Shown in pieces: positions 8,982-21,614 of a stretch of DNA of 24,206 nucleotides. A model generated the notes under the pieces. It saw only the letters and a program-made list of their open reading frames with translations. It was not told where the DNA came from and did not search any database. Within the stretch, counting starts at the first letter, position 1. The number at the start of each line of letters is the position of its first letter. The DNA lies in the IMG/VR virus record IMGVR_UViG_3300020371_000053, positions 1 through 24,206 of that record; one strand, given 5' to 3'. The translations under genes were made by a program, and so were the position numbers. The DNA comes from a virus.

Positions 8982-9001
8982 CCAGAAATGGTGATTTTGT
9001 G

Positions 9002-9766
9002 ATGCACATTAATTACGTAGATCCTGACGATATTAAAGTTAATCCAGATGCTGTCATCAACAACAAAAAGATAGGAGAAAAGAATCATTCTCTTATTGTT
9101 GTTGATGACTTTTTAGTGGATCCAAATAAATTTATTGAGAACTTTGTTCAACATGTTCCTGTTACCCTAAACAGAGTAGCAGATGACTCTATAATGCCTG
9201 GATGGATTGGAGAAATTGATCCTAGATTGAAAGAAGTTGATGCTGCATGTACTCAACTTTTGGATATGTATACCGACTTCGATATTCCAGATAATGAAAT
9301 TGATAGGTATCGTTGGAACTACCAATTAAACGTAATTCATGGTGGTTCTGAGGTTGTAAAAAAATCATTACAACCACATATTGATCCAGCAATGTATGCA
9401 TGGGTTTTATATCTAAATCAAGATGATGATTGTAGAGGTGGTACAGCATTCTACAAACATTCTATGTCTGGGGATATGAACCTAGAACATATCGATAAGT
9501 CTTGGAAAAGAACTGCGGATTATTGGAAATTTAAGGAATGGCAATTTGAAACTATTAGAGATACTCAGAATGATTATGTAGAGTTTGATTCTGATAATAT
9601 GGATGATGCTTGGGAAGAGTATCACTTTGAACCAATGAAATTCAATAAATTGATTCTCTATCCATCATACATTTATCATACTGCCCTTATGAAACAAAAC
9701 TGGTTTTTGGACACTCCAAGAATCAGTGTATCTGGATTTATTCATCACTCATGGTTCAACAATTAA
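9002..9766 (+). CDS. 2OG-Fe(II) oxygenase-like protein, DUF6445-type
   Basis: This 254-residue protein is a distant paralogue of the product of 300-1028. Counting from the ATG at 9002, H126-I-D128 and H226 are the probable iron ligands and R240 the probable 2OG-binding arginine. CRGGTAFYKH follows the HxD strand, and KFNKLILYPSYIYH carries the distal histidine. The N-terminal VVDDFLVDPNKF matches the family start. A GTG at 8999 immediately before is a less likely start. The gene follows a late promoter in the fiber stop codon and overlaps the next gene by 16 bases. Its place between fiber and adhesin-like genes suggests action during virion assembly, but this is inference and the substrate is unknown. 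Confidence 0.75.
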   Translation: MHINYVDPDDIKVNPDAVINNKKIGEKNHSLIVVDDFLVDPNKFIENFVQHVPVTLNRVADDSIMPGWIGEIDPRLKEVDAACTQLLDMYTDFDIPDNEIDRYRWNYQLNVIHGGSEVVKKSLQPHIDPAMYAWVLYLNQDDDCRGGTAFYKHSMSGDMNLEHIDKSWKRTADYWKFKEWQFETIRDTQNDYVEFDSDNMDDAWEEYHFEPMKFNKLILYPSYIYHTALMKQNWFLDTPRISVSGFIHHSWFNN

Positions 9767-10320
9767 AAGATCATATTCATACCCATAATAATGTTCTGAG
9801 TACATCTGATCACAAGCACTTCTTAGATCTGTGTAGTAAATTTGAGTTTGAGTTTACTGAACCAAGAGATGTATTTTATAGTCTAGAATCTATGAGATCA
9901 CATATATGTCTAGATCGTGATGAACATAGAGATCTATGGAATTTATGTCACAAAGTGATGCTGAAAACTATTCCACAGATATATCATCATTATCAAGATA
10001 TTTTACCTAAAGATGATGATCTTTACGATAAATATAGTGGATACTGGTTATGTAAGTATCCTGAAGGTAGTGGCATATCTTATCATGCAGATCTTGACGG
10101 TGATGCTGGTTCAGTTACTGTTTCATATGCAATCAATGATGATTATGAAGGTGGAGAATTGAGATTCTGGAAAGAGTTGAGTTTGGAAAAAGAATCCAAC
10201 TCTGTTCACATCTATCCAAGTAATTTTTTATATCCACATGAAGTAACGCCAGTAACTGCGGGTACAAGATATTCGATAGTTTGTTGGTTTGGTTATCAAA
10301 AAGGACAAGATTGGAGTTAA
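9751..10320 (+). CDS. 2OG-Fe(II) oxygenase, prolyl-4-hydroxylase-like
   Basis: This 189-residue protein is a single double-stranded beta-helix domain. YHADLDGD gives the HxD ligands (H112, D114). YEGGELRFW is the usual strand after the first ligands, and HIYPSNFLYPHEVTPVTAGTR contains the distal H163 and 2OG-binding R173, ten residues apart as in prolyl and lysyl hydroxylase relatives. The N-terminal 90 residues look helical and are not recognised. The ATG at 9751 lies inside the end of the upstream oxygenase gene, which suggests coupled translation. The next gene starts two bases after its stop codon. Confidence 0.82.
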   Translation: MVQQLKDHIHTHNNVLSTSDHKHFLDLCSKFEFEFTEPRDVFYSLESMRSHICLDRDEHRDLWNLCHKVMLKTIPQIYHHYQDILPKDDDLYDKYSGYWLCKYPEGSGISYHADLDGDAGSVTVSYAINDDYEGGELRFWKELSLEKESNSVHIYPSNFLYPHEVTPVTAGTRYSIVCWFGYQKGQDWS

Positions 10321-10322
10321 AA

Positions 10323-11387
10323 ATGGTAGAACTAGAAAGACTTGAAAGAGTACAACAATCAGGAAAATATCCCAATCTTCTTACATCCACCGATGTTGAG
10401 AATGTCAAGGCGGTTGTTGAAGCAAATCCAAGTCTATTTGCTTATGGTTGGTCCGATAAAAGATCCACAAGAAGAGATTCTGGTGCAACTTTTTCAAAGA
10501 GATCTGATGGAACTAACCTCTATGGATTCTGGTTCAATCATCCAGCAAGAACTGGAAATCATAGACTTTGGGATGGTCACATTTTAAGAAATAACTTATT
10601 TAATTATTCATCTGAAGAGATTGGTTATTGGTTTAGCGCAGATGATCTTACATATCCAGAGGAAGAACATATTAGTCTGGATTCTGTGCCATTATTTGAA
10701 CCATCTATTATGAATCTATGTTCTCTCGCTTCAGAAATCACAGGGAGAACTCAAGTTGCCGATCTAAAAAATGCACTAGACCTTATTAAGAACATAGATG
10801 ATCTAGAAGATCTCGATTATACTATTAATTACATTATTGTAAACAGAAAGAGACAGACACTAGAAATTGGACTAGAAAAAACCGAAAATGAAACTAGATT
10901 TACTCCATTAGTAGAACATTTAACAACAGAAGGTACTGGTGCGAGAAGAAATTGTATAGCAGTTTCTGAACTTATTCAAAGAGATTTTTTAAGTCAGAAT
11001 GGAGACAATGTTACATCGTTTACTCTGAAGTATGGACCAGGAGGATTGCCAGAAGAAACTACTTTTGTTATTTCAACAACACATAGTAAACTTGCTCCAG
11101 TAGGTACTTCGCCGCAAGATAACTATCAAGTCTTCCAATCAAGATCTGCATCACATAGAAACTTTGTCTGTGGAACATCAAGTATTTGCAATGAATATGG
11201 TTGGATTAAAGAAGTCATTAAAAATGAGATCGACATCTGGGAAGATGAAGATCTCTTAGAAAATGTTTATGGAGTAACTAAGATTACTGCTAATGAGTCT
11301 GGAACTGTAACTGAAATTATCTATGGATTTAGTGGACCAAAAAGTGGCAATCAACCAACGTTTACAGCACCACTGATTAAAGATTAA
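10323..11387 (+). CDS. Unknown protein in late fiber-region operon
   Basis: I do not recognise this 354-residue protein. It is soluble-looking and acidic, with no signal peptide or membrane segment. Features include a Trp/Gly/Asn-rich stretch (LYGFWFNHPARTGNHRLWDG, about residues 67-86), a Leu/Asp-rich helical stretch near the middle, and a beta-rich C-terminal part. I chose the ATG at 10323 because it sits just after the upstream stop codon; in-frame codons from 10281 would overlap the oxygenase gene. It is the last gene of the late unit that begins at 9002. Its stop codon overlaps the stop codon of the convergent glycine-rich gene. Position suggests a fiber accessory or virion protein, without direct evidence. 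Confidence 0.7.
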   Translation: MVELERLERVQQSGKYPNLLTSTDVENVKAVVEANPSLFAYGWSDKRSTRRDSGATFSKRSDGTNLYGFWFNHPARTGNHRLWDGHILRNNLFNYSSEEIGYWFSADDLTYPEEEHISLDSVPLFEPSIMNLCSLASEITGRTQVADLKNALDLIKNIDDLEDLDYTINYIIVNRKRQTLEIGLEKTENETRFTPLVEHLTTEGTGARRNCIAVSELIQRDFLSQNGDNVTSFTLKYGPGGLPEETTFVISTTHSKLAPVGTSPQDNYQVFQSRSASHRNFVCGTSSICNEYGWIKEVIKNEIDIWEDEDLLENVYGVTKITANESGTVTEIIYGFSGPKSGNQPTFTAPLIKD

Positions 11388-13057
11388 GTGAGTCTAAATC
11401 CTCCACTATGACTGGTGGTAAAGTTACCAAAACCGCCACCACCGCCGCCATTTTGTCCATCTCTTCCATTGCGGTCGCCTCTGAAACCGCATCCGCCCTC
11501 TTGCTCTCTGCCGTTTTCTCCTTTTCCTCCCTTTTGTCCGCCTGATCCATTGCTACAGAAGTTACCTCCTGAACCTCCATCACCACCTCTACCACCTTTT
11601 CCTGCTCCACGTCCTTCTCCGCCTTGACCGCCTTGACCACCTTCTCTGTAATCACCTTGATTCATTTGTCTCCAAGAACTTCCAGTCCAACGGTATCCTT
11701 TTCCTGATCCACCTCGGCCTCCATCGCCGCCTCTTCCTCCCTTACCACCATTTTTTTCACATTTTTTCTTACTGCCCCAGCAGAAGTAACCTGAACATCT
11801 TTTAACGGAACCGTGTCCTCCACCTCCGCCATCTCCTCCGCGACCACCGCCGCCTCCACCACCACCAGCACCTCGAATCCTATTGGTGAAATCACCATTG
11901 CGAATCTCTAAGTAAGAAGCAACGTGCATAGCGTGTCCACCTGCTTGACCACCTCCACCATTTTCACTCCCAGGATCTCCAGCAAAACCAAGAACTTTTC
12001 CATTTACTCTAAGTTCATTGTCTCCACCAGAACTATTATTCCATCTAAATCCTGGTTGAGACTGACTCAATGAACCACAGTGTCCAGTGATAACAATTCT
12101 TTTATTAAAAGAAGTATTTGTCCAAATTGTTTCGTTATTAACAATTTGCCATCGTGCATTTAAGTGTGCAAAGTTACCGTTGCAATTATAAACAACACCA
12201 GTAGCAACATCTCTTAGTTCTGATGCAGCAAATCGACCACTAGTAGGAACCTGATTGTTAACACTAACATTAACAACCGCTTTACCTCTATAGTATTCCG
12301 ACAGTTTGACAGGATTACTTCCACCTAACTGTTCTTGGAAACCACTCCATTTCAGATCACCACTACCGCCAAATTTTCTCGTGTAGTTTGTGACAACCTG
12401 TCCACCACCAATCTCAAAGTCTGCAATTTGATTACCTCCTCCAAGTGCCTGTTGAAGTTCTGGAGAAAGATCCGAAATCTGTTCCCCATTCATCATCGCA
12501 GTGCGAGGATACTTGAGAGTGAAAGATTCTGTCTTAGTATCTACAGACATGGCAAGATCTCCCTCATCAATATTGACATGATGTAAAGTCTCATCATCAC
12601 TGTCTATGATGTAGATCTTATTTTTATCGCCATCATATCTTCCAGCAAATGCAGAGATCCATCTCGCACAGTCTCTAAGATCTCTATTTGATTTGTAAGG
12701 GACTCCATTATCTCTAAAGATACAGTCTACAAATACAATATCGCCAGATGAGTGACCAACAAACTTTCCAATGGGTCCATCATCAGCAAAAGGTGTATTT
12801 TCTACAAATGTTCCTCTAATTATAATGTTGTGTTGACCGTTGGTTCTTTTTTCATCATAAAAGTCATGTTGAAACCACACATAACACTTGAAATCTCCTA
12901 CAGTTGAGAGTGTCTTATACACCTGCTCATCTGCCATGTATGAATAGTAATTAATAGGCATTTCGGGAGGAACAGGATTGTTGTCAATCTCTTCTTCCTT
13001 ACGATGTTCTTCTAAAGAATATGTACCCTCAAACAATTCTTCGTTGTTATCCAACAT
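11384..13057 (-). CDS. Glycine-rich adhesin-like tail protein
   Basis: This 557-residue protein ends in a long glycine-rich region (about 357-547) with runs of Gly and many GGxGGxGG patterns, interrupted by a Cys/Lys-rich insert (CSGYFCWGSKKKC, 421-433). Residues 252-258 are LSEYYRG, a short motif seen in many phage tail proteins, here between beta-rich segments. The N-terminal 200 residues are acidic and not recognised. Glycine-rich sandwiches of this sort form the receptor-binding part of T-even gp38 adhesins, so a host-recognition tip is the best guess. Homology to gp38 itself is not shown. The gene is transcribed alone on the minus strand from its own late motif (13082-13088) and converges on the gene at 10323. 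No clear Shine-Dalgarno sequence precedes ATG 13057. Confidence 0.8.
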   Translation of the reverse strand: MLDNNEELFEGTYSLEEHRKEEEIDNNPVPPEMPINYYSYMADEQVYKTLSTVGDFKCYVWFQHDFYDEKRTNGQHNIIIRGTFVENTPFADDGPIGKFVGHSSGDIVFVDCIFRDNGVPYKSNRDLRDCARWISAFAGRYDGDKNKIYIIDSDDETLHHVNIDEGDLAMSVDTKTESFTLKYPRTAMMNGEQISDLSPELQQALGGGNQIADFEIGGGQVVTNYTRKFGGSGDLKWSGFQEQLGGSNPVKLSEYYRGKAVVNVSVNNQVPTSGRFAASELRDVATGVVYNCNGNFAHLNARWQIVNNETIWTNTSFNKRIVITGHCGSLSQSQPGFRWNNSSGGDNELRVNGKVLGFAGDPGSENGGGGQAGGHAMHVASYLEIRNGDFTNRIRGAGGGGGGGGRGGDGGGGGHGSVKRCSGYFCWGSKKKCEKNGGKGGRGGDGGRGGSGKGYRWTGSSWRQMNQGDYREGGQGGQGGEGRGAGKGGRGGDGGSGGNFCSNGSGGQKGGKGENGREQEGGCGFRGDRNGRDGQNGGGGGGFGNFTTSHSGGFRLT

Positions 13058-13462: not shown

Positions 13463-14947
13463 ATGTCTGGCAAAATTACAGAAGTCGCAGTAAAAGATCT
13501 CTCCACCCGCAAGGTGATGCAGAAGGTCACACAATTCGCTACACTCAAAGATTTTTCTCGAATCGTCAAACAAACTGGTCGCGATTGCACGGTACAACGT
13601 GAGTCTGTTTGGCGTTTCATTCCTGATAAACAGTCCAAGTATATGAGTGCCCTTGCACAAGGTTACTCCGATACTTCCATCTTTCACCTCATCAACCTTG
13701 AGAAATCGGTAGAGATTCTTGAACCGATTGCTCTTTCTTCTGGTGTTCCCCAAGATCTGCAATTCATCGATCACCAGAAGTTGTTCATCTCAAAAGGTTT
13801 CAACTGGGTTCACATCGACGGTGGCAATCGTTCCGATACCATTATGGATTGGTACGACAATAAGATTGCTCTTCAACCTGGAAACTATGTGATCCCTACT
13901 GGTGAAGGTGATCTGGTTCGCTACACTCTGAACAAGACAAACTACTTCACCTATGAAGTATGTTGTGAAGAGTTTCCTGCTCTGGTTGAGTTTATCGACA
14001 ACCAAACGATTGCATGGATCGAGTATTCTGGTCTCAATCGTGAAGAACGTCGCGATTTGTTTGAACGTCTGAATGATAACGAGAACCTCAACACTGAGGA
14101 ACTTCGTAACTGCAGCACATCTGAGATCTGCACAAACATTCGTGAACTGAACTATAAGTACAAGGATCGCTTTGTACTTGACAATGAGAAGAAGACTTTT
14201 GTTCTCAAGTCTAATGCAGAACGCTACAAGTTCTGTGCATACCTTGCATCTCTCCTGAACTTCTATACTTTCCGTGGTCAGGTTGATGCTTTCTCTCCCA
14301 AGACTCTCGACTCTGATTACAACTCAAACTCTGAGGCAGAGAACAACTTCAAAGACTTCAAAAAGTTCTTTGAATCTACTTTCATGCCGATGGTAAAGTA
14401 TATCGGTGATTTCACCAAACTTGGTGGTGCTCGTAACCGTCTGATTGATCTTTACTGTGCTCTGGTTGAAATCTATGCAGAGGGTGATGAACTTCATCGT
14501 CTAGATAACAACAAACTGGACTATCAATCCTTCCTTGAGTGTTATCTTGAGTTGGTTGGTAAGTATTGGGGTGAGGAAGAAGCACGGTTCGAGACTGGTC
14601 GTTCTTCCTGTAAGTTCAAGGATCTGTATGGTGCTAACACCAATTACAAGATGAAGCACCGTCTGGAACTTATCCGTAATGAGTTCATCCCCATGTTGAA
14701 AGAACGTGGTATTGTTGTCACTAAGGATAAGACTCGTTATTTCCCTCAGGAATGGCGCCGTATCTTGTGGTCTCGTCAACAGGGTAAGTGTGCTCTGACT
14801 GGTGAAATCATCCCCATCACTGATGTTGAGAACGGTGATAAGGTTCACATCGATCACATCATTCCCCACTCAAAAGGTGGCAAGACAGTGATGGAGAATG
14901 CTCAACTTACCCTTGCTGGTCCTAATATGGAAAAGAGTAACAAATGA
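13463..14947 (+). CDS. DUF262-HNH endonuclease-like protein
   Basis: This 494-residue protein has two recognisable ends. The N-terminal half looks like DUF262 (ParB/sulfiredoxin-like fold, found in GmrSD and other nucleotide-dependent nucleases): QRESVWRF near 46-52, IDGGNR at 118-123 in place of the usual DGQQR, and LFERLNDNENLNTEELRN (199-216), matching the family's second signature. The C-terminus is an HNH nuclease motif: C443, D464-H465, N479 and N488, ending six residues later. The third HNH position is N, and only one of the usual zinc cysteines is present, so a zinc-free HNH fold is likely. All of the roughly 28 Arg codons are CGN, unlike the neighbouring oxygenase genes. It begins the early operon and overlaps the next gene by four bases. 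Roles in host DNA attack, exclusion of rival phages or mobility are all possible. Confidence 0.8.
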   Translation: MSGKITEVAVKDLSTRKVMQKVTQFATLKDFSRIVKQTGRDCTVQRESVWRFIPDKQSKYMSALAQGYSDTSIFHLINLEKSVEILEPIALSSGVPQDLQFIDHQKLFISKGFNWVHIDGGNRSDTIMDWYDNKIALQPGNYVIPTGEGDLVRYTLNKTNYFTYEVCCEEFPALVEFIDNQTIAWIEYSGLNREERRDLFERLNDNENLNTEELRNCSTSEICTNIRELNYKYKDRFVLDNEKKTFVLKSNAERYKFCAYLASLLNFYTFRGQVDAFSPKTLDSDYNSNSEAENNFKDFKKFFESTFMPMVKYIGDFTKLGGARNRLIDLYCALVEIYAEGDELHRLDNNKLDYQSFLECYLELVGKYWGEEEARFETGRSSCKFKDLYGANTNYKMKHRLELIRNEFIPMLKERGIVVTKDKTRYFPQEWRRILWSRQQGKCALTGEIIPITDVENGDKVHIDHIIPHSKGGKTVMENAQLTLAGPNMEKSNK

Positions 14948-15519
14948 CTTCATATCCACTATTTCCAACTCTAGTGGAAGAGTATGACCTTTCGGGGTCC
15001 TCTGCTCTTTCCACATTTAAGGAGATTATTGATACTCAGGGACAGAAAGGACATCACTTTCTTGCTGTCACTGGGGAATCAAGTCATGGTCGTTGGGATC
15101 CATTTAGAGTTGATGGATCCCGTCCATTGGTTGATCTCGTAGTGGAATGTATGCAGCACTATGTTGATAAGGTACAATTAAATCCAATCATGATTGGTAA
15201 TGCATGGTATAATGAGTTGCCTCCTGGTGGTTGGACAAAGAGACATCGCCATGAGTTTAGTACAATTAGTGGTGCATTATATTTGAAGTTGCCAAAAAAT
15301 AGTGGAGATCTTTATTTCGTTTCTCCTCTCCAAGGATATAGAATGTGTGAGTTACATAATGGTCCATCAGAATGGAATGAGTATGAACATGACATGCCAA
15401 TTAAAGAAGATCATTTATATCTTTTCCCTAGTTGGTTAGAGCATGGTAGTAGAGAAAATAAGAGTGATGAGAGTAGAGTGACCGTTAGTTTTAATACCTC
15501 ACCATATTTCCCCGATTAA
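14944..15519 (+). CDS. 2OG-Fe(II) oxygenase, TIGR02466/2OG-FeII_Oxy_5-like
   Basis: This 191-residue protein fits the putative 2OG-Fe(II) oxygenase family common in cyanophages. Visible signatures are NAWYNELPPGGWTKRHRH with H101-x-H103 (this family has HxH where others have HxD), ISGALYL directly after, LYLFPSWLEHGS with distal H167, and R178 in SRVTVSFN as the likely 2OG ligand. It opens with YPLFPTLVEEYDL, the usual start of the family. The ATG overlaps the stop of the nuclease gene, and the next gene starts five bases after its own stop codon, so all three are probably one operon. The substrate is unknown. Confidence 0.85.
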   Translation: MTSYPLFPTLVEEYDLSGSSALSTFKEIIDTQGQKGHHFLAVTGESSHGRWDPFRVDGSRPLVDLVVECMQHYVDKVQLNPIMIGNAWYNELPPGGWTKRHRHEFSTISGALYLKLPKNSGDLYFVSPLQGYRMCELHNGPSEWNEYEHDMPIKEDHLYLFPSWLEHGSRENKSDESRVTVSFNTSPYFPD

Positions 15520-15524
15520 CAATA

Positions 15525-16238
15525 ATGGAAATTTTTGAAATTCTACCATCACCTCTCGCCGTAGTACCTTGTCCCTTTCATGAAAAAATGAAAAGGACAA
15601 TTTTTGATGAGATGGAGAAAATAAAGGATACTGATTGGACAAAATGGGGATCTGATGAACTAAAACATATGGACTCATGTTCATTTCTCGATCTACCTGA
15701 GTTGGAAAGATTGTCCATTTGGATTGAGGAACAAGCAGAGATATTTTGTAGAGAAGTTAAAGGAGATCACCTTGTAGATGGTGTCATCGTAACTGATAGT
15801 TGGTTAAATGTTTGTGCTCCTGGCGGTATGCAGGGACCACATTATCACACTAATTCATATCTTAGTGGACTCTATTATGTTAATTTTGACGCAGACATTC
15901 ATGCGCCAACGTATTTCTATAAGACACAGAGTTCCCATATGTTTGCTCCATCGACTCCGAACATATCACTGATGACTGATAAGAATACAAAATATACTGA
16001 ACCTCAACCATTTACGGCACAAGAGGGAGAGTTAATCTTATGGTCATCGGAATTGATTCATGGATATAAACCCAATCAAGGAGATACTAGGGTTACATTA
16101 TCTTTTAATATAATGCCTAAGGTTGTAACTAGTGGAGAGTATGGGTGGAAGGTTGAGAAACTGTCCCCCAGAGACCGTCTGGCATGTGTGGAGAACAAAA
16201 AATCTGGTAAGATATGGGGAGTTCCACATTTCCAATGA
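15525..16238 (+). CDS. 2OG-Fe(II) oxygenase, TIGR02466/2OG-FeII_Oxy_5-like
   Basis: This 237-residue protein is a paralogue of the preceding product. It shows SWLNVCAPGGMQGPHYH with H106-x-H108, LSGLYYVNF, GELILWSSELIHGY with distal H179, and R189 in TRVTLSFN. It is longer than its neighbour because of an insertion after the HxH strand and a basic C-terminal extension (about 200-237) that is not recognised. Tandem arrangement and order suggest an old duplication followed by strong divergence. Its stop overlaps the start of the small gene at 16235. Confidence 0.85.
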   Translation: MEIFEILPSPLAVVPCPFHEKMKRTIFDEMEKIKDTDWTKWGSDELKHMDSCSFLDLPELERLSIWIEEQAEIFCREVKGDHLVDGVIVTDSWLNVCAPGGMQGPHYHTNSYLSGLYYVNFDADIHAPTYFYKTQSSHMFAPSTPNISLMTDKNTKYTEPQPFTAQEGELILWSSELIHGYKPNQGDTRVTLSFNIMPKVVTSGEYGWKVEKLSPRDRLACVENKKSGKIWGVPHFQ

Positions 16239-19548: not shown

Positions 19549-19672
19549 AGACAAAAGGGTCAGTCAACATGTAACTGACCCACTTAAAGCACACCTTAAG
19601 TTCTTAAAACAATTAAAAAAAGATCTTAAGAAACCAGGCACTAAACTTCGCAAACGAGACAAACGAAAATGA
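19541..19672 (+). CDS. Possible tiny, highly basic protein (43 residues)
   Basis: An open frame runs from GTG 19541 to TGA 19670-19672. It overlaps the upstream stop by eight bases and the oxygenase ATG by four (ATGA). The product is very rich in Lys/Arg, ending KKPGTKLRKRDKRK. The perfect bridging of two genes by short overlaps argues for a real gene in this compact genome. The GTG start and the lack of a good ribosome binding site argue for caution. A perfect hairpin lies in its first third. It could be a small nucleic-acid-binding protein. Confidence 0.45.
   Translation: MSKDKRVSQHVTDPLKAHLKFLKQLKKDLKKPGTKLRKRDKRK
19557..19581 (+). repeat. Perfect 8-bp inverted repeat (hairpin)
   Basis: GGGTCAGT (19557-19564) pairs with ACTGACCC (19574-19581) around loop CAACATGTA. 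There is no T-run after it, so it is not a standard terminator. It may act as an RNA processing or stability element between the acidic gene and the oxygenase gene. Confidence 0.5.
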
Positions 19673-20244
19673 CTGTAGCACAACTTAATCTCTTCGGCAT
19701 TCCTGTTAATAGGATTACTCTGCCTGATTGGGATAAACTTAAACCACAGTTGCTTGAGATGATTGATCTCGATGGTGATGAATATAAAAATGAAACATGC
19801 ACAACTGATTTCTTTCATGTTGGTGCCTTCGATGGTAAAGGTCGTGCAAATGGTCATCCATACCTAGAAAAGTTCTGGGAGTTGGTTGGTCCATCGATTG
19901 AAGAATGTTGGCAGATGATGAGTCTACCACCACACAAAGATCCTAGTGAGATTCAACTTTGGTCTCAGAGATATTATCGTGGAGATTATCATGACCTACA
20001 TAATCATGGGTTTGGTAATATGTCAGGCGTTCTTAATCTTGAACATGATCCTGCACTACATTCCTCCACTAGGTTACAATGTCCATACCTAGATCCTCTC
20101 TATGGTAGACTCACAATGATGGAACTGCCAGATGTTAATGAGGGTGATATTATTCTATTCCCTGCTGCTTTAGGTCACGAATCTACTGCAAATCTTCATG
20201 ATGAACCTAGGACAATTATGTCATTTAACATTCCTATTCAATAA
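19669..20244 (+). CDS. 2OG-Fe(II) oxygenase, TIGR02466-like
   Basis: This 191-residue protein is the seventh oxygenase-like product in the window. YRGDYHDLHNHGFGNMSGV holds H111-x-H113 followed by the family's MSGVLNL strand. GDIILFPAALGHES has distal H170, and R181 in RTIMSFNIP is the probable 2OG ligand. LNLFGIPVNRITLPDW is a typical family start. It is more diverged from the pair at 14944 and 15525 than those look from each other. The gene sits in a helicase-led early-type transcript, unlike the oxygenases near the fiber. The next gene starts one base after its stop codon. Confidence 0.8.
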   Translation: MTVAQLNLFGIPVNRITLPDWDKLKPQLLEMIDLDGDEYKNETCTTDFFHVGAFDGKGRANGHPYLEKFWELVGPSIEECWQMMSLPPHKDPSEIQLWSQRYYRGDYHDLHNHGFGNMSGVLNLEHDPALHSSTRLQCPYLDPLYGRLTMMELPDVNEGDIILFPAALGHESTANLHDEPRTIMSFNIPIQ

Positions 20245-20413: not shown

Positions 20414-20546
20414 AATGTTTCCCATTCGATTGGAAACTAAAGAGGTTGTGTGTCACTTTCAGTGCATGGAACACGCTCAGACGTATATAAAGAGACATAA
20501 ACTTAGAAAACCAAAGTATAAACTAGAAGAAAGACCCTCCGAGTGA
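20382..20546 (+). CDS. Small basic protein with TTG start (54 residues)
   Basis: The frame opens right after a stop (TAA 20379-20381) at TTG 20382, with GGAG (20371-20374) seven bases upstream as a good ribosome binding site. The product reads (M)KKAREKFPYEMFPIRLE..., then VCHFQCMEHAQTYIKRHKL and a basic tail ending EERPSE. I recall the YEMFPIRL motif from short cyanophage hypothetical proteins, which supports the upstream TTG rather than the internal ATG 20415. The stop codon lies in the terminator loop. C and H residues (CHFQC, EH) might bind a metal, but a full site is not evident. Confidence 0.65.
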   Translation: MKKAREKFPYEMFPIRLETKEVVCHFQCMEHAQTYIKRHKLRKPKYKLEERPSE

Positions 20547-20558
20547 GGGTCTTTTTTT
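20531..20558 (+). terminator. Rho-independent terminator
   Basis: AAGACCCTC (20531-20539) pairs with GAGGGTCTT (20545-20553) around a five-base loop, followed by seven T (20552-20558). It ends the helicase-to-small-gene transcript; the last gene's stop codon lies inside it. Confidence 0.9.
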
Positions 20559-20567
20559 ATGGCAAAT

Positions 20568-20736
20568 CGCCTTTTATATAAAAAGCGTTCAAAAACAGCA
20601 GCATCATCGTTTTGGGGGTGTGCTTATATAAAAACTGTCACATAGGGGACAGACATGGCGTTTTCTGTGAGTTATTATATACTCATGAAAAACACCCACC
20701 TCGAGCACCCAGAAGACGCGATTTTATATAATCGCG
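20568..20736 (+). repeat. Four phased TATATA boxes, two in 20-bp palindromes
   Basis: TATATA occurs at 20575, 20625, 20676 and 20725, spaced 50, 51 and 49 bases. The first is the centre of a 20-base inverted repeat (20568-20587, one mismatch) with CGC/GCG ends. The last lies in CGCGATT (20717-20723) paired with AATCGCG (20730-20736), inside the coding region. No good -35 box accompanies them. They span the terminator-gene gap and the start of the ligase-like gene, and may be operator or promoter sites. Confidence 0.5.
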
Positions 20737-21614
20737 AGACTTTTGACAAAATGCTTCATTTTTTGCGTGATCGTAGCAGCACTGCCACTGTAAAGTGGGA
20801 CGGTGCTCCTGCTATAGTATTTGGCACATATGAAGGAAAATGGTTTGTTGGTACTAAAAGTGTATTCAACAAAGTAAAAGTCAAGATTAACTATAGTCAT
20901 AATGATATAGAAGTCAATCATGGCGATTCTCCTAGAGTTGCTGCTATCTTACATACATGTTTTGAATGTTTGCGTAAAACTCCTGGTATTTGGCAGGGTG
21001 ATTTTATAGGTTATGGCGGCACTAATAGTTTCACTCCCAACACTCTTACATATAACTTTGACGAGACGATTGATAAGGGTATTGTTGTAGCAGTTCATAC
21101 TCATTATCAGGGTAAGGATCTCAAGACAATGTGTGCTGATTTCAATGCTCAGTGGGATAGATATGAACGTGGAAGTAATACTCGATACTTGAACACTGAT
21201 GCACACTTTACCGCCCGTAGTCGTAGAATTGACTACCTTATTAATTTTGCTTCTATGGTTGCAAATTTTGTTAGATTTCCTGATGAAAAGAGAGGAAAAG
21301 AACTGAAAGTTGCAGTCAATAAGTGTATCCGTGAGGGTACAGATATTGCCAATGCAGGTATGGGTCCGACCATGACATTGCTCTACAAAACTATCATGGA
21401 GATCAAGCGATTGATGATGAAGGGTATCACCTCTGATGAGAACGTTCAAGTTCAGTTTGAGGGTGAAGATTGTGACCATGAGGGTTATGTTGTAACCAAT
21501 AATCATGGCACTTACAAACTAGTCAACCGTCGTGAGTTTTCATATCGTAACTTCACCACCGCCAAAAAGTGGTTGGACAATGGTAAACCAATCGCTTTCA
21601 ATGTTAGGAACTAA
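20655..21614 (+). CDS. Nucleotidyltransferase/ligase-like protein (DUF6267-type)
   Basis: This 319-residue protein resembles the phage family I know as DUF6267 and carries what look like the motifs of covalent nucleotidyltransferases (DNA/RNA ligases, capping enzymes). Motif I is VKWDG with K47, followed by APAIVFG. VGTKSVFNK (65-73) may be the next strand, GDFIGYG (115-121) a possible motif III, EGYVV (276-280) motif IV and YKLVNRREF (287-295) motif V. The conserved region begins HLEHPEDAIL (15-24). ATG 20655 has AGGGGA upstream; ATG 20685, which would start MKNTHLEHP, is an alternative. It is transcribed apart from its neighbours, between a terminator and a late gene. It could be an RNA- or DNA-repair ligase or another nucleotidyltransferase; activity is unproven. 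Confidence 0.7.
   Translation: MAFSVSYYILMKNTHLEHPEDAILYNRETFDKMLHFLRDRSSTATVKWDGAPAIVFGTYEGKWFVGTKSVFNKVKVKINYSHNDIEVNHGDSPRVAAILHTCFECLRKTPGIWQGDFIGYGGTNSFTPNTLTYNFDETIDKGIVVAVHTHYQGKDLKTMCADFNAQWDRYERGSNTRYLNTDAHFTARSRRIDYLINFASMVANFVRFPDEKRGKELKVAVNKCIREGTDIANAGMGPTMTLLYKTIMEIKRLMMKGITSDENVQVQFEGEDCDHEGYVVTNNHGTYKLVNRREFSYRNFTTAKKWLDNGKPIAFNVRN

Follow-up and report, generated by a model that had tools for sequence, protein, structure and literature searches.

The 24,206-nucleotide stretch of viral DNA analyzed here (the window; IMG/VR record IMGVR_UViG_3300020371_000053, positions 1 to 24,206) encodes a DUF6267 protein, which we propose to represent a new family of the polynucleotide ligase/RNA capping superfamily that is nearest to the Rnl-type catalytic domain and joins nucleic acids. 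We put the probability of this proposal at roughly 0.6; nucleic-acid end joining is the probable main reaction to about the same degree, and the presence of a covalent nucleotidyltransferase fold is very probable.

Gene and conserved motifs

The open reading frame is a genuine gene. It is directly preceded by a Shine-Dalgarno-like AGGGGA, a terminator-like hairpin with a T-run lies nearby at about 20535-20560, and nucleotide comparisons with two close relatives gave ratios of nonsynonymous to synonymous substitution of 0.16 and 0.11, low values indicating that the protein is maintained under purifying selection. Pfam recovers DUF6267 (PF19782; E 2e-77; 261.6 bits against a gathering cut-off of 27), the label already assigned in a sequence-only reading of this DNA, and no other family at E≤10. 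The protein also belongs to phrog_455, annotated as of unknown function. An NCBIfam scan returned only a spurious weak match and a plasmid search none; PADLOC likewise gave no match and therefore no evidence for a known defence role.

The protein shows the characteristic succession of superfamily motifs: a KxxG lysine in motif I, followed in order by motifs III, IIIa, IV and V, all of them conserved (Table 1). Among 38 viral relatives, collected by sequence patterns not containing motif I, residues K47, D49, G50, D116, E276, G277 and K288 are invariant, as they also are in a wider set of 13 relatives that extends to 27% identity and takes in phage proteins from Pseudoalteromonas, Stenotrophomonas and Methylophilales (27-30% identical). 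In a census of 193 sequences D116, H148 and, gaps aside, K288 are conserved likewise, K68, H148, N222, K251, R292 and N299 being near-invariant; motifs I and IV helped to select part of this census, which accordingly counts as independent evidence at all other positions but not at these two. Members outside that selection display K-x-D-G wherever the retrieved DNA covers the region. A motif regular expression tuned on the window protein matched 9 of 300,000 shuffled sequences, and among 573 distinct open reading frames of at least 250 residues it matched DUF6267 members and T4 Rnl2 only. The ligase-type motifs of DUF6267 are no chance occurrence. The elements picked out by the sequence-only reading (VKWDG, VGTKSVFNK, GDFIGYG, EGYVV and YKLVNRREF) were all recovered, with near-invariant key residues and in the order it had given, and its choice of K47 as the predicted nucleophile gains support from the invariance of this residue in relatives, its position in motif I and the ligase-like predicted fold.

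Predicted fold

An AlphaFold2 model of the window protein, built from the 38-sequence alignment, reached a predicted local distance difference test score (pLDDT) of 85.3 and a predicted template modeling score of 0.82. Its best 50 Foldseek matches in the PDB are all DNA or RNA ligases or ligase-containing complexes, and in VIA-align ligases occupy all 50 listed rows, headed by the Naegleria RNA ligase (Z 9.2, 3.6 Å over 177 residues) and followed by T4 Rnl2 (7.6), T4 Rnl1 (7.4), and Trl1 and TbREL1 (7.2), with DNA ligases at Z 5-6. A second model, of a 402-residue member sharing 31% identity with the window protein (pLDDT 91.1), likewise places the Naegleria ligase (Z 8.2), T4 Rnl2 (7.3) and Trl1 (7.2) on top. 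Against viral models (BFVD), a Siphoviridae RNA ligase is matched beyond DUF6267 itself with a probability of 0.98. Z-scores of 7-9 are by themselves middling; the uniform list of ligases and the register of the motifs carry the weight.

This register, read from structural alignment ranges rather than from superposed coordinates, pairs T4 Rnl2 with DUF6267 as SSLENH/THLEHP, KIHG/KWDG, GEFAGPG/GDFIGYG, EGYV/EGYV and KCKNSKF/KLVNRREF, such that the conserved N-terminal peptide coincides with the SSLENH start of T4 Rnl2. Both models thus point to the ATP-grasp/ligase nucleotidyltransferase fold. A predicted fold unrelated to nucleotidyltransferases had been named in advance as the outcome that would speak against the assignment; instead, the top matches of both models are polynucleotide ligases, in support of the earlier suggestion of a ligase-like or nucleotidyl-transferring enzyme.

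Table 1. Features of the DUF6267 gene and further open reading frames in the window
Feature	Residues	Coordinates	Strand	Remarks
DUF6267 gene, predicted RNA-ligase-like covalent nucleotidyltransferase	319 aa	20655..21614	+	ATG start, stop included
Conserved N-terminal peptide MKNTHLEHPED	11-21	20685..20717	+	H15, H18 near-invariant
Motif I, V-K47-W-D-G	46-50	20790..20804	+	predicted nucleotidylated lysine
Motif Ia-like, VGTKSVFNK	65-73	20847..20873	+	K68, F71 invariant
Motif III, Q-G-D116-F-I-G-Y-G	114-121	20994..21017	+	compare GEFAGPG of T4 Rnl2; Asp for usual Glu
Motif IIIa strand	143-152	21081..21110	+	H148 near-invariant; His at IIIa in RLIG1 too
Helical insertion between IIIa and IV	190-256	21222..21422	+	N222, K251 invariant; bigger in long members
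Motif IV, E276-G-Y-V-V	276-280	21480..21494	+	
Motif V, Y-K288-L-V-N-R-R-E-F	287-295	21513..21539	+	single lysine; R292 invariant where aligned
2-oxoglutarate (2OG)-Fe(II)-oxygenase-like/DUF6445 open reading frames		288-1028, 1025-1609, 8999-9766, 9751-10320, 14944-15519, 15525-16238, 19669-20244		

Domain architecture and relationship to known ligases

Measured from K47, the DUF6267 residues K68 (motif Ia), D116 (III) and H148 (IIIa) lie at +21, +69 and +101, and their T4 Rnl2 counterparts R55, E99 and F119 at +20, +64 and +84. The distance from motif III to motif IV (D116 to E276) is 160 residues, as against 105 in T4 Rnl2 and 68 in T4 Rnl1, in agreement with the unusually long gap of roughly 150 residues remarked upon earlier; the extra length is helical in the models, with 67 residues in the window protein and about 130 in long members. 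Nearly all members have only about 10-35 residues left after motif V (31 after K288 in the window protein, the last 11 of low confidence), too few for an oligonucleotide/oligosaccharide-binding (OB) fold with motif VI or for the C-terminal domain of the Rnl enzymes. Accordingly, the OB-fold and motif VI that follow motif V in ATP-dependent DNA ligases and GTP capping enzymes are missing from nearly all members, which makes GTP capping less likely, and the window protein has no Rnl2 C-terminal domain after motif V.

The short C-terminal end and the His at motif IIIa most resemble RLIG1 (C12orf29, PF17720; human and Yasminevirus), a proven RNA ligase that has a IIIa His, lacks an RNA-binding domain and likewise finds its best fold match in the Naegleria RNA ligase (PMC11494293). 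The two families share a KxDG motif I, the IIIa His, the motif IV Glu, the absence of an RNA-binding domain and the placement of the motif V Lys (13 residues past motif IV in RLIG1, 12 in DUF6267), whereas RLIG1 differs in its motif III Glu in place of Asp and in a III-IV spacing of 66 rather than 160. RLIG1 was dropped as the parent family, no PF17720 match having been found in the window protein or in DUF6267 genomes.

Rnl2-type ligases (T4 gp24.1, TbREL1) and the Naegleria RNA ligase, the best fold matches, share with DUF6267 the N-terminal LE(N/H) peptide, the G-[DE]-F-x-G-x-G form of motif III and an EGYV motif IV; DUF6267 differs in having K-x-V rather than K-x-K in motif V, and it lacks the C-terminal domain of the former and the N-terminal OB domain of the latter. 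T4 Rnl1 (gp63) has the same KxDG motif I and EGYV motif IV and nearly the same IV-V spacing (13 versus 12 in DUF6267), but its all-helical C-terminal domain is absent from DUF6267. ATP-dependent DNA ligases such as T4 gp30 share the catalytic core fold and motifs I, III, IV and V, whereas DUF6267 lacks their DNA-binding domain along with the OB-fold and motif VI. Significant profile matches were found neither to PF01068 nor, by Pfam scan and hhalign, to the Rnl2-type (PF09414) and Rnl1-type (PF09511) families.

Phyletic distribution and genomic context

DUF6267 is recorded 371 times in Synechococcus, 61 in Cyanophage, 24 in Prochlorococcus, 4 in Methylophilales and 2 in Pelagibacter entries, and cyanophage uvsX 374, 61, 24, 4 and 2 times in the same groups; this match, of tallies rather than of records paired one by one, marks DUF6267 as in essence a core gene of the T4-like cyanophages. 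In ordinary T4-like cyanophages it usually lies in the replication cluster, in the order gp43-uvsX-gp41-mazG-X-DUF6267-cytidyltransferase, and its pairing with the cytidyltransferase is kept in Methylophilales phage Melnitz-1 and Stenotrophomonas phage DLP6. In the group to which the window belongs (Sf-FS3, 94% identical) DUF6267 stands alone after a 2OG oxygenase, with the cytidyltransferase about 110 kb off.

The position upstream of DUF6267 (locus L086, 4569-5912, and counterparts) is taken by a gene of 305-447 residues (phrog_1462 and others), which scored over cut-off with no Pfam or NCBIfam family in the phages tested and may share a module with DUF6267. A 188-kb contig filed under the flavobacterial genome of Nonlabens xiamenensis (L264) encodes DUF6267 followed by a HIGH-superfamily enzyme and is probably a phage.

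Six-frame searches for six ligase families (PF01068, PF09414, PF01653, PF09511, PF17720 for RLIG1 and PF01139 for RtcB) found none over cut-off in seven T4-like cyanophages and Melnitz-1, while the same searches recovered gp30, rnlB and rnlA of T4 as controls. A 2010 review of T4-like cyanophages had reported that g30 homologues were not found and offered two options, distant ligase homologues that went unrecognized or use of the host ligase, of which the latter was thought more probable (PMC2984593). DUF6267 fits the option of an unrecognized homologue. As a core gene of the replication cluster in phages in which no other ligase was recognized, it has end joining as its leading reading.

Predicted mechanism

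For the nucleotide, the lysine adduct, the ligation step and the substrate we infer the following scheme. ATP would be held between the two β-sheets of the protein and its α-phosphate attacked by K47, releasing pyrophosphate and forming Lys47-AMP, with D49, D116, E276 and K288 helping to hold the metal and the nucleotide. The AMP would then be handed to a 5'-phosphate end (App-N), and attack by a 3'-OH would close the strand. In substrate binding, the absent OB or C-terminal domain may be replaced by the helical insertion between motifs IIIa and IV. DUF6267 would thereby be the T4-like cyanophages' own strand sealer, acting on RNA (nicks, cleaved tRNA) or on replication and recombination nicks. 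The fold evidence slightly favors RNA over DNA, and gene location favors DNA.

Several observations weigh against this proposal. The motif III Asp and the lack of a second motif V lysine deviate from the usual pattern. Foldseek E-values to ligases are weak for the window model (best 0.02), and plain Foldseek with the 402-residue model was uninformative, being swamped by the long helical insertion. Comparison by hhalign with the T4 Rnl1, Rnl2 and gp30 families gave nothing significant, the Rnl1 and Rnl2 alignments matching motif IV or IV-V in the correct register but without significance; phmmer and profile searches of PDB sequences gave no match, so that the assignment rests on fold and motif register. 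Host LigA could serve the phage, as suggested in PMC2984593. A gp30-type DNA ligase occurs alongside DUF6267 in Stenotrophomonas phage DLP6 and Pseudoalteromonas phage XG4, the latter having Rnl1- and Rnl2-type ligases in addition; DUF6267 is therefore not a simple ligase substitute, and its candidacy as a whole replacement of gp30 is weakened. Finally, the tight link to a HIGH-superfamily enzyme, taken up below, is not typical of ligases.

Alternative explanations

Within the proposed end-joining activity, a tentative specialization is the repair of RNA, in particular of tRNA cleaved by host anticodon nucleases, as T4 Rnl1 and Pnk act against PrrC. The nearest folds are RNA ligases, tRNA ligases among them, minimal ligases like RLIG1 join tRNA (PMC11494293), and the other ligases in some DUF6267 bearers suggest specialized roles. 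However, no kinase/phosphatase end-healing partner was detected by Pfam or NCBIfam among the neighbors tested, the gene usually sits in a DNA replication cluster, and PADLOC is silent. The repair or anti-defence role envisaged earlier is, more generally, possible.

A HIGH-superfamily nucleotidyltransferase module is present together with DUF6267 in all 10 genomes searched, with a HIGH motif within 4 kb downstream in 33 of the 129 loci with enough DNA, and phrog_455 spans both modules. Fusions are seen in S-PM2, where BFVD lists a 591-residue protein with the two modules, and in Synechococcus phage metaG-MbCM1 as a DUF6267-like protein of 728 residues (BFVD H8ZNG8). The label of the latter, 'NrdB ribonucleotide reductase A subunit', is apparently a misannotation. 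In the S-PM2 genome (NC_006820; L082, 6004-7783) DUF6267 is split over two coding sequences, the second labeled cytidyltransferase, and its C-terminal piece is in frame with the HIGH domain. HIGH enzymes yield nucleoside monophosphate (NMP)-diphosphate-X compounds and have roles involving nucleoside diphosphate sugars and nicotinamide adenine dinucleotide. These associations would suit a covalent nucleotidyltransferase that does not join ends and instead hands the NMP on Lys47 to an RNA 5' end, as a non-canonical cap, or else to a protein or small molecule, the HIGH partner acting in the same pathway. We consider this doubtful, as every close fold match is a polynucleotide ligase and the DUF6267 and HIGH genes are widely separated in XG4 and in the group of the window; this separation also means that a tight DUF6267-HIGH pathway is not needed everywhere.

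A narrower form of the end-joining proposal, in which DUF6267 is a phage DNA ligase for replication and recombination nicks, draws on its near-universal presence in T4-like cyanophages, usually beside gp43, uvsX and gp41, and on the lack of gp30- or LigA-type genes in the cyanophage genomes tested. It is nonetheless rather unlikely: the OB-fold and motif VI needed by ATP-dependent DNA ligases are absent, the fold is nearer to RNA ligases, and DLP6 and XG4 keep a gp30-type enzyme.

Still less likely is a two-enzyme system, in which the HIGH product, a dinucleotide or activated cofactor, would be the NMP donor for DUF6267 or be put on nucleic-acid ends by it. If true, marine T4-like phages would have a previously undescribed system for donor-coupled ligation or capping. 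A literature search for a cyanophage cytidyltransferase together with an RNA ligase found nothing. That DUF6267 is a relic of the ligase fold, inactive or confined to binding, as the motif III Asp and lone motif V lysine might suggest, is highly improbable, given that a relic would drift whereas K47, the catalytic lysine, is near-invariant family-wide, as are D49, E276 and K288.

Other features of the window

Seven open reading frames resembling 2OG-Fe(II) oxygenases or DUF6445 form an unusually dense set for 24 kb (Table 1); Pfam assigns six of the seven to 2OG-FeII_Oxy_3/_5 or DUF6445 and gives no match for 1025-1609. The window also encodes a 494-residue protein (13463-14947) with a C-terminal HNH_4 (Cas9-type) domain and an N-terminal part without a Pfam match, and, on the minus strand (11384-13057), a 557-residue protein whose C-terminal half is very rich in glycine, with an adhesin-like composition.

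Implications

T4-like cyanophages rank among the most abundant viruses of the sea, and DUF6267 is near-universal in them; no paper in the literature searched names the family. If DUF6267 is a ligase, it could explain how these phages cope without a recognized ligase of their own. The assignment would give a large uncharacterized phage family a defined chemistry and a predicted catalytic lysine, and may offer a new RNA- or DNA-joining reagent.
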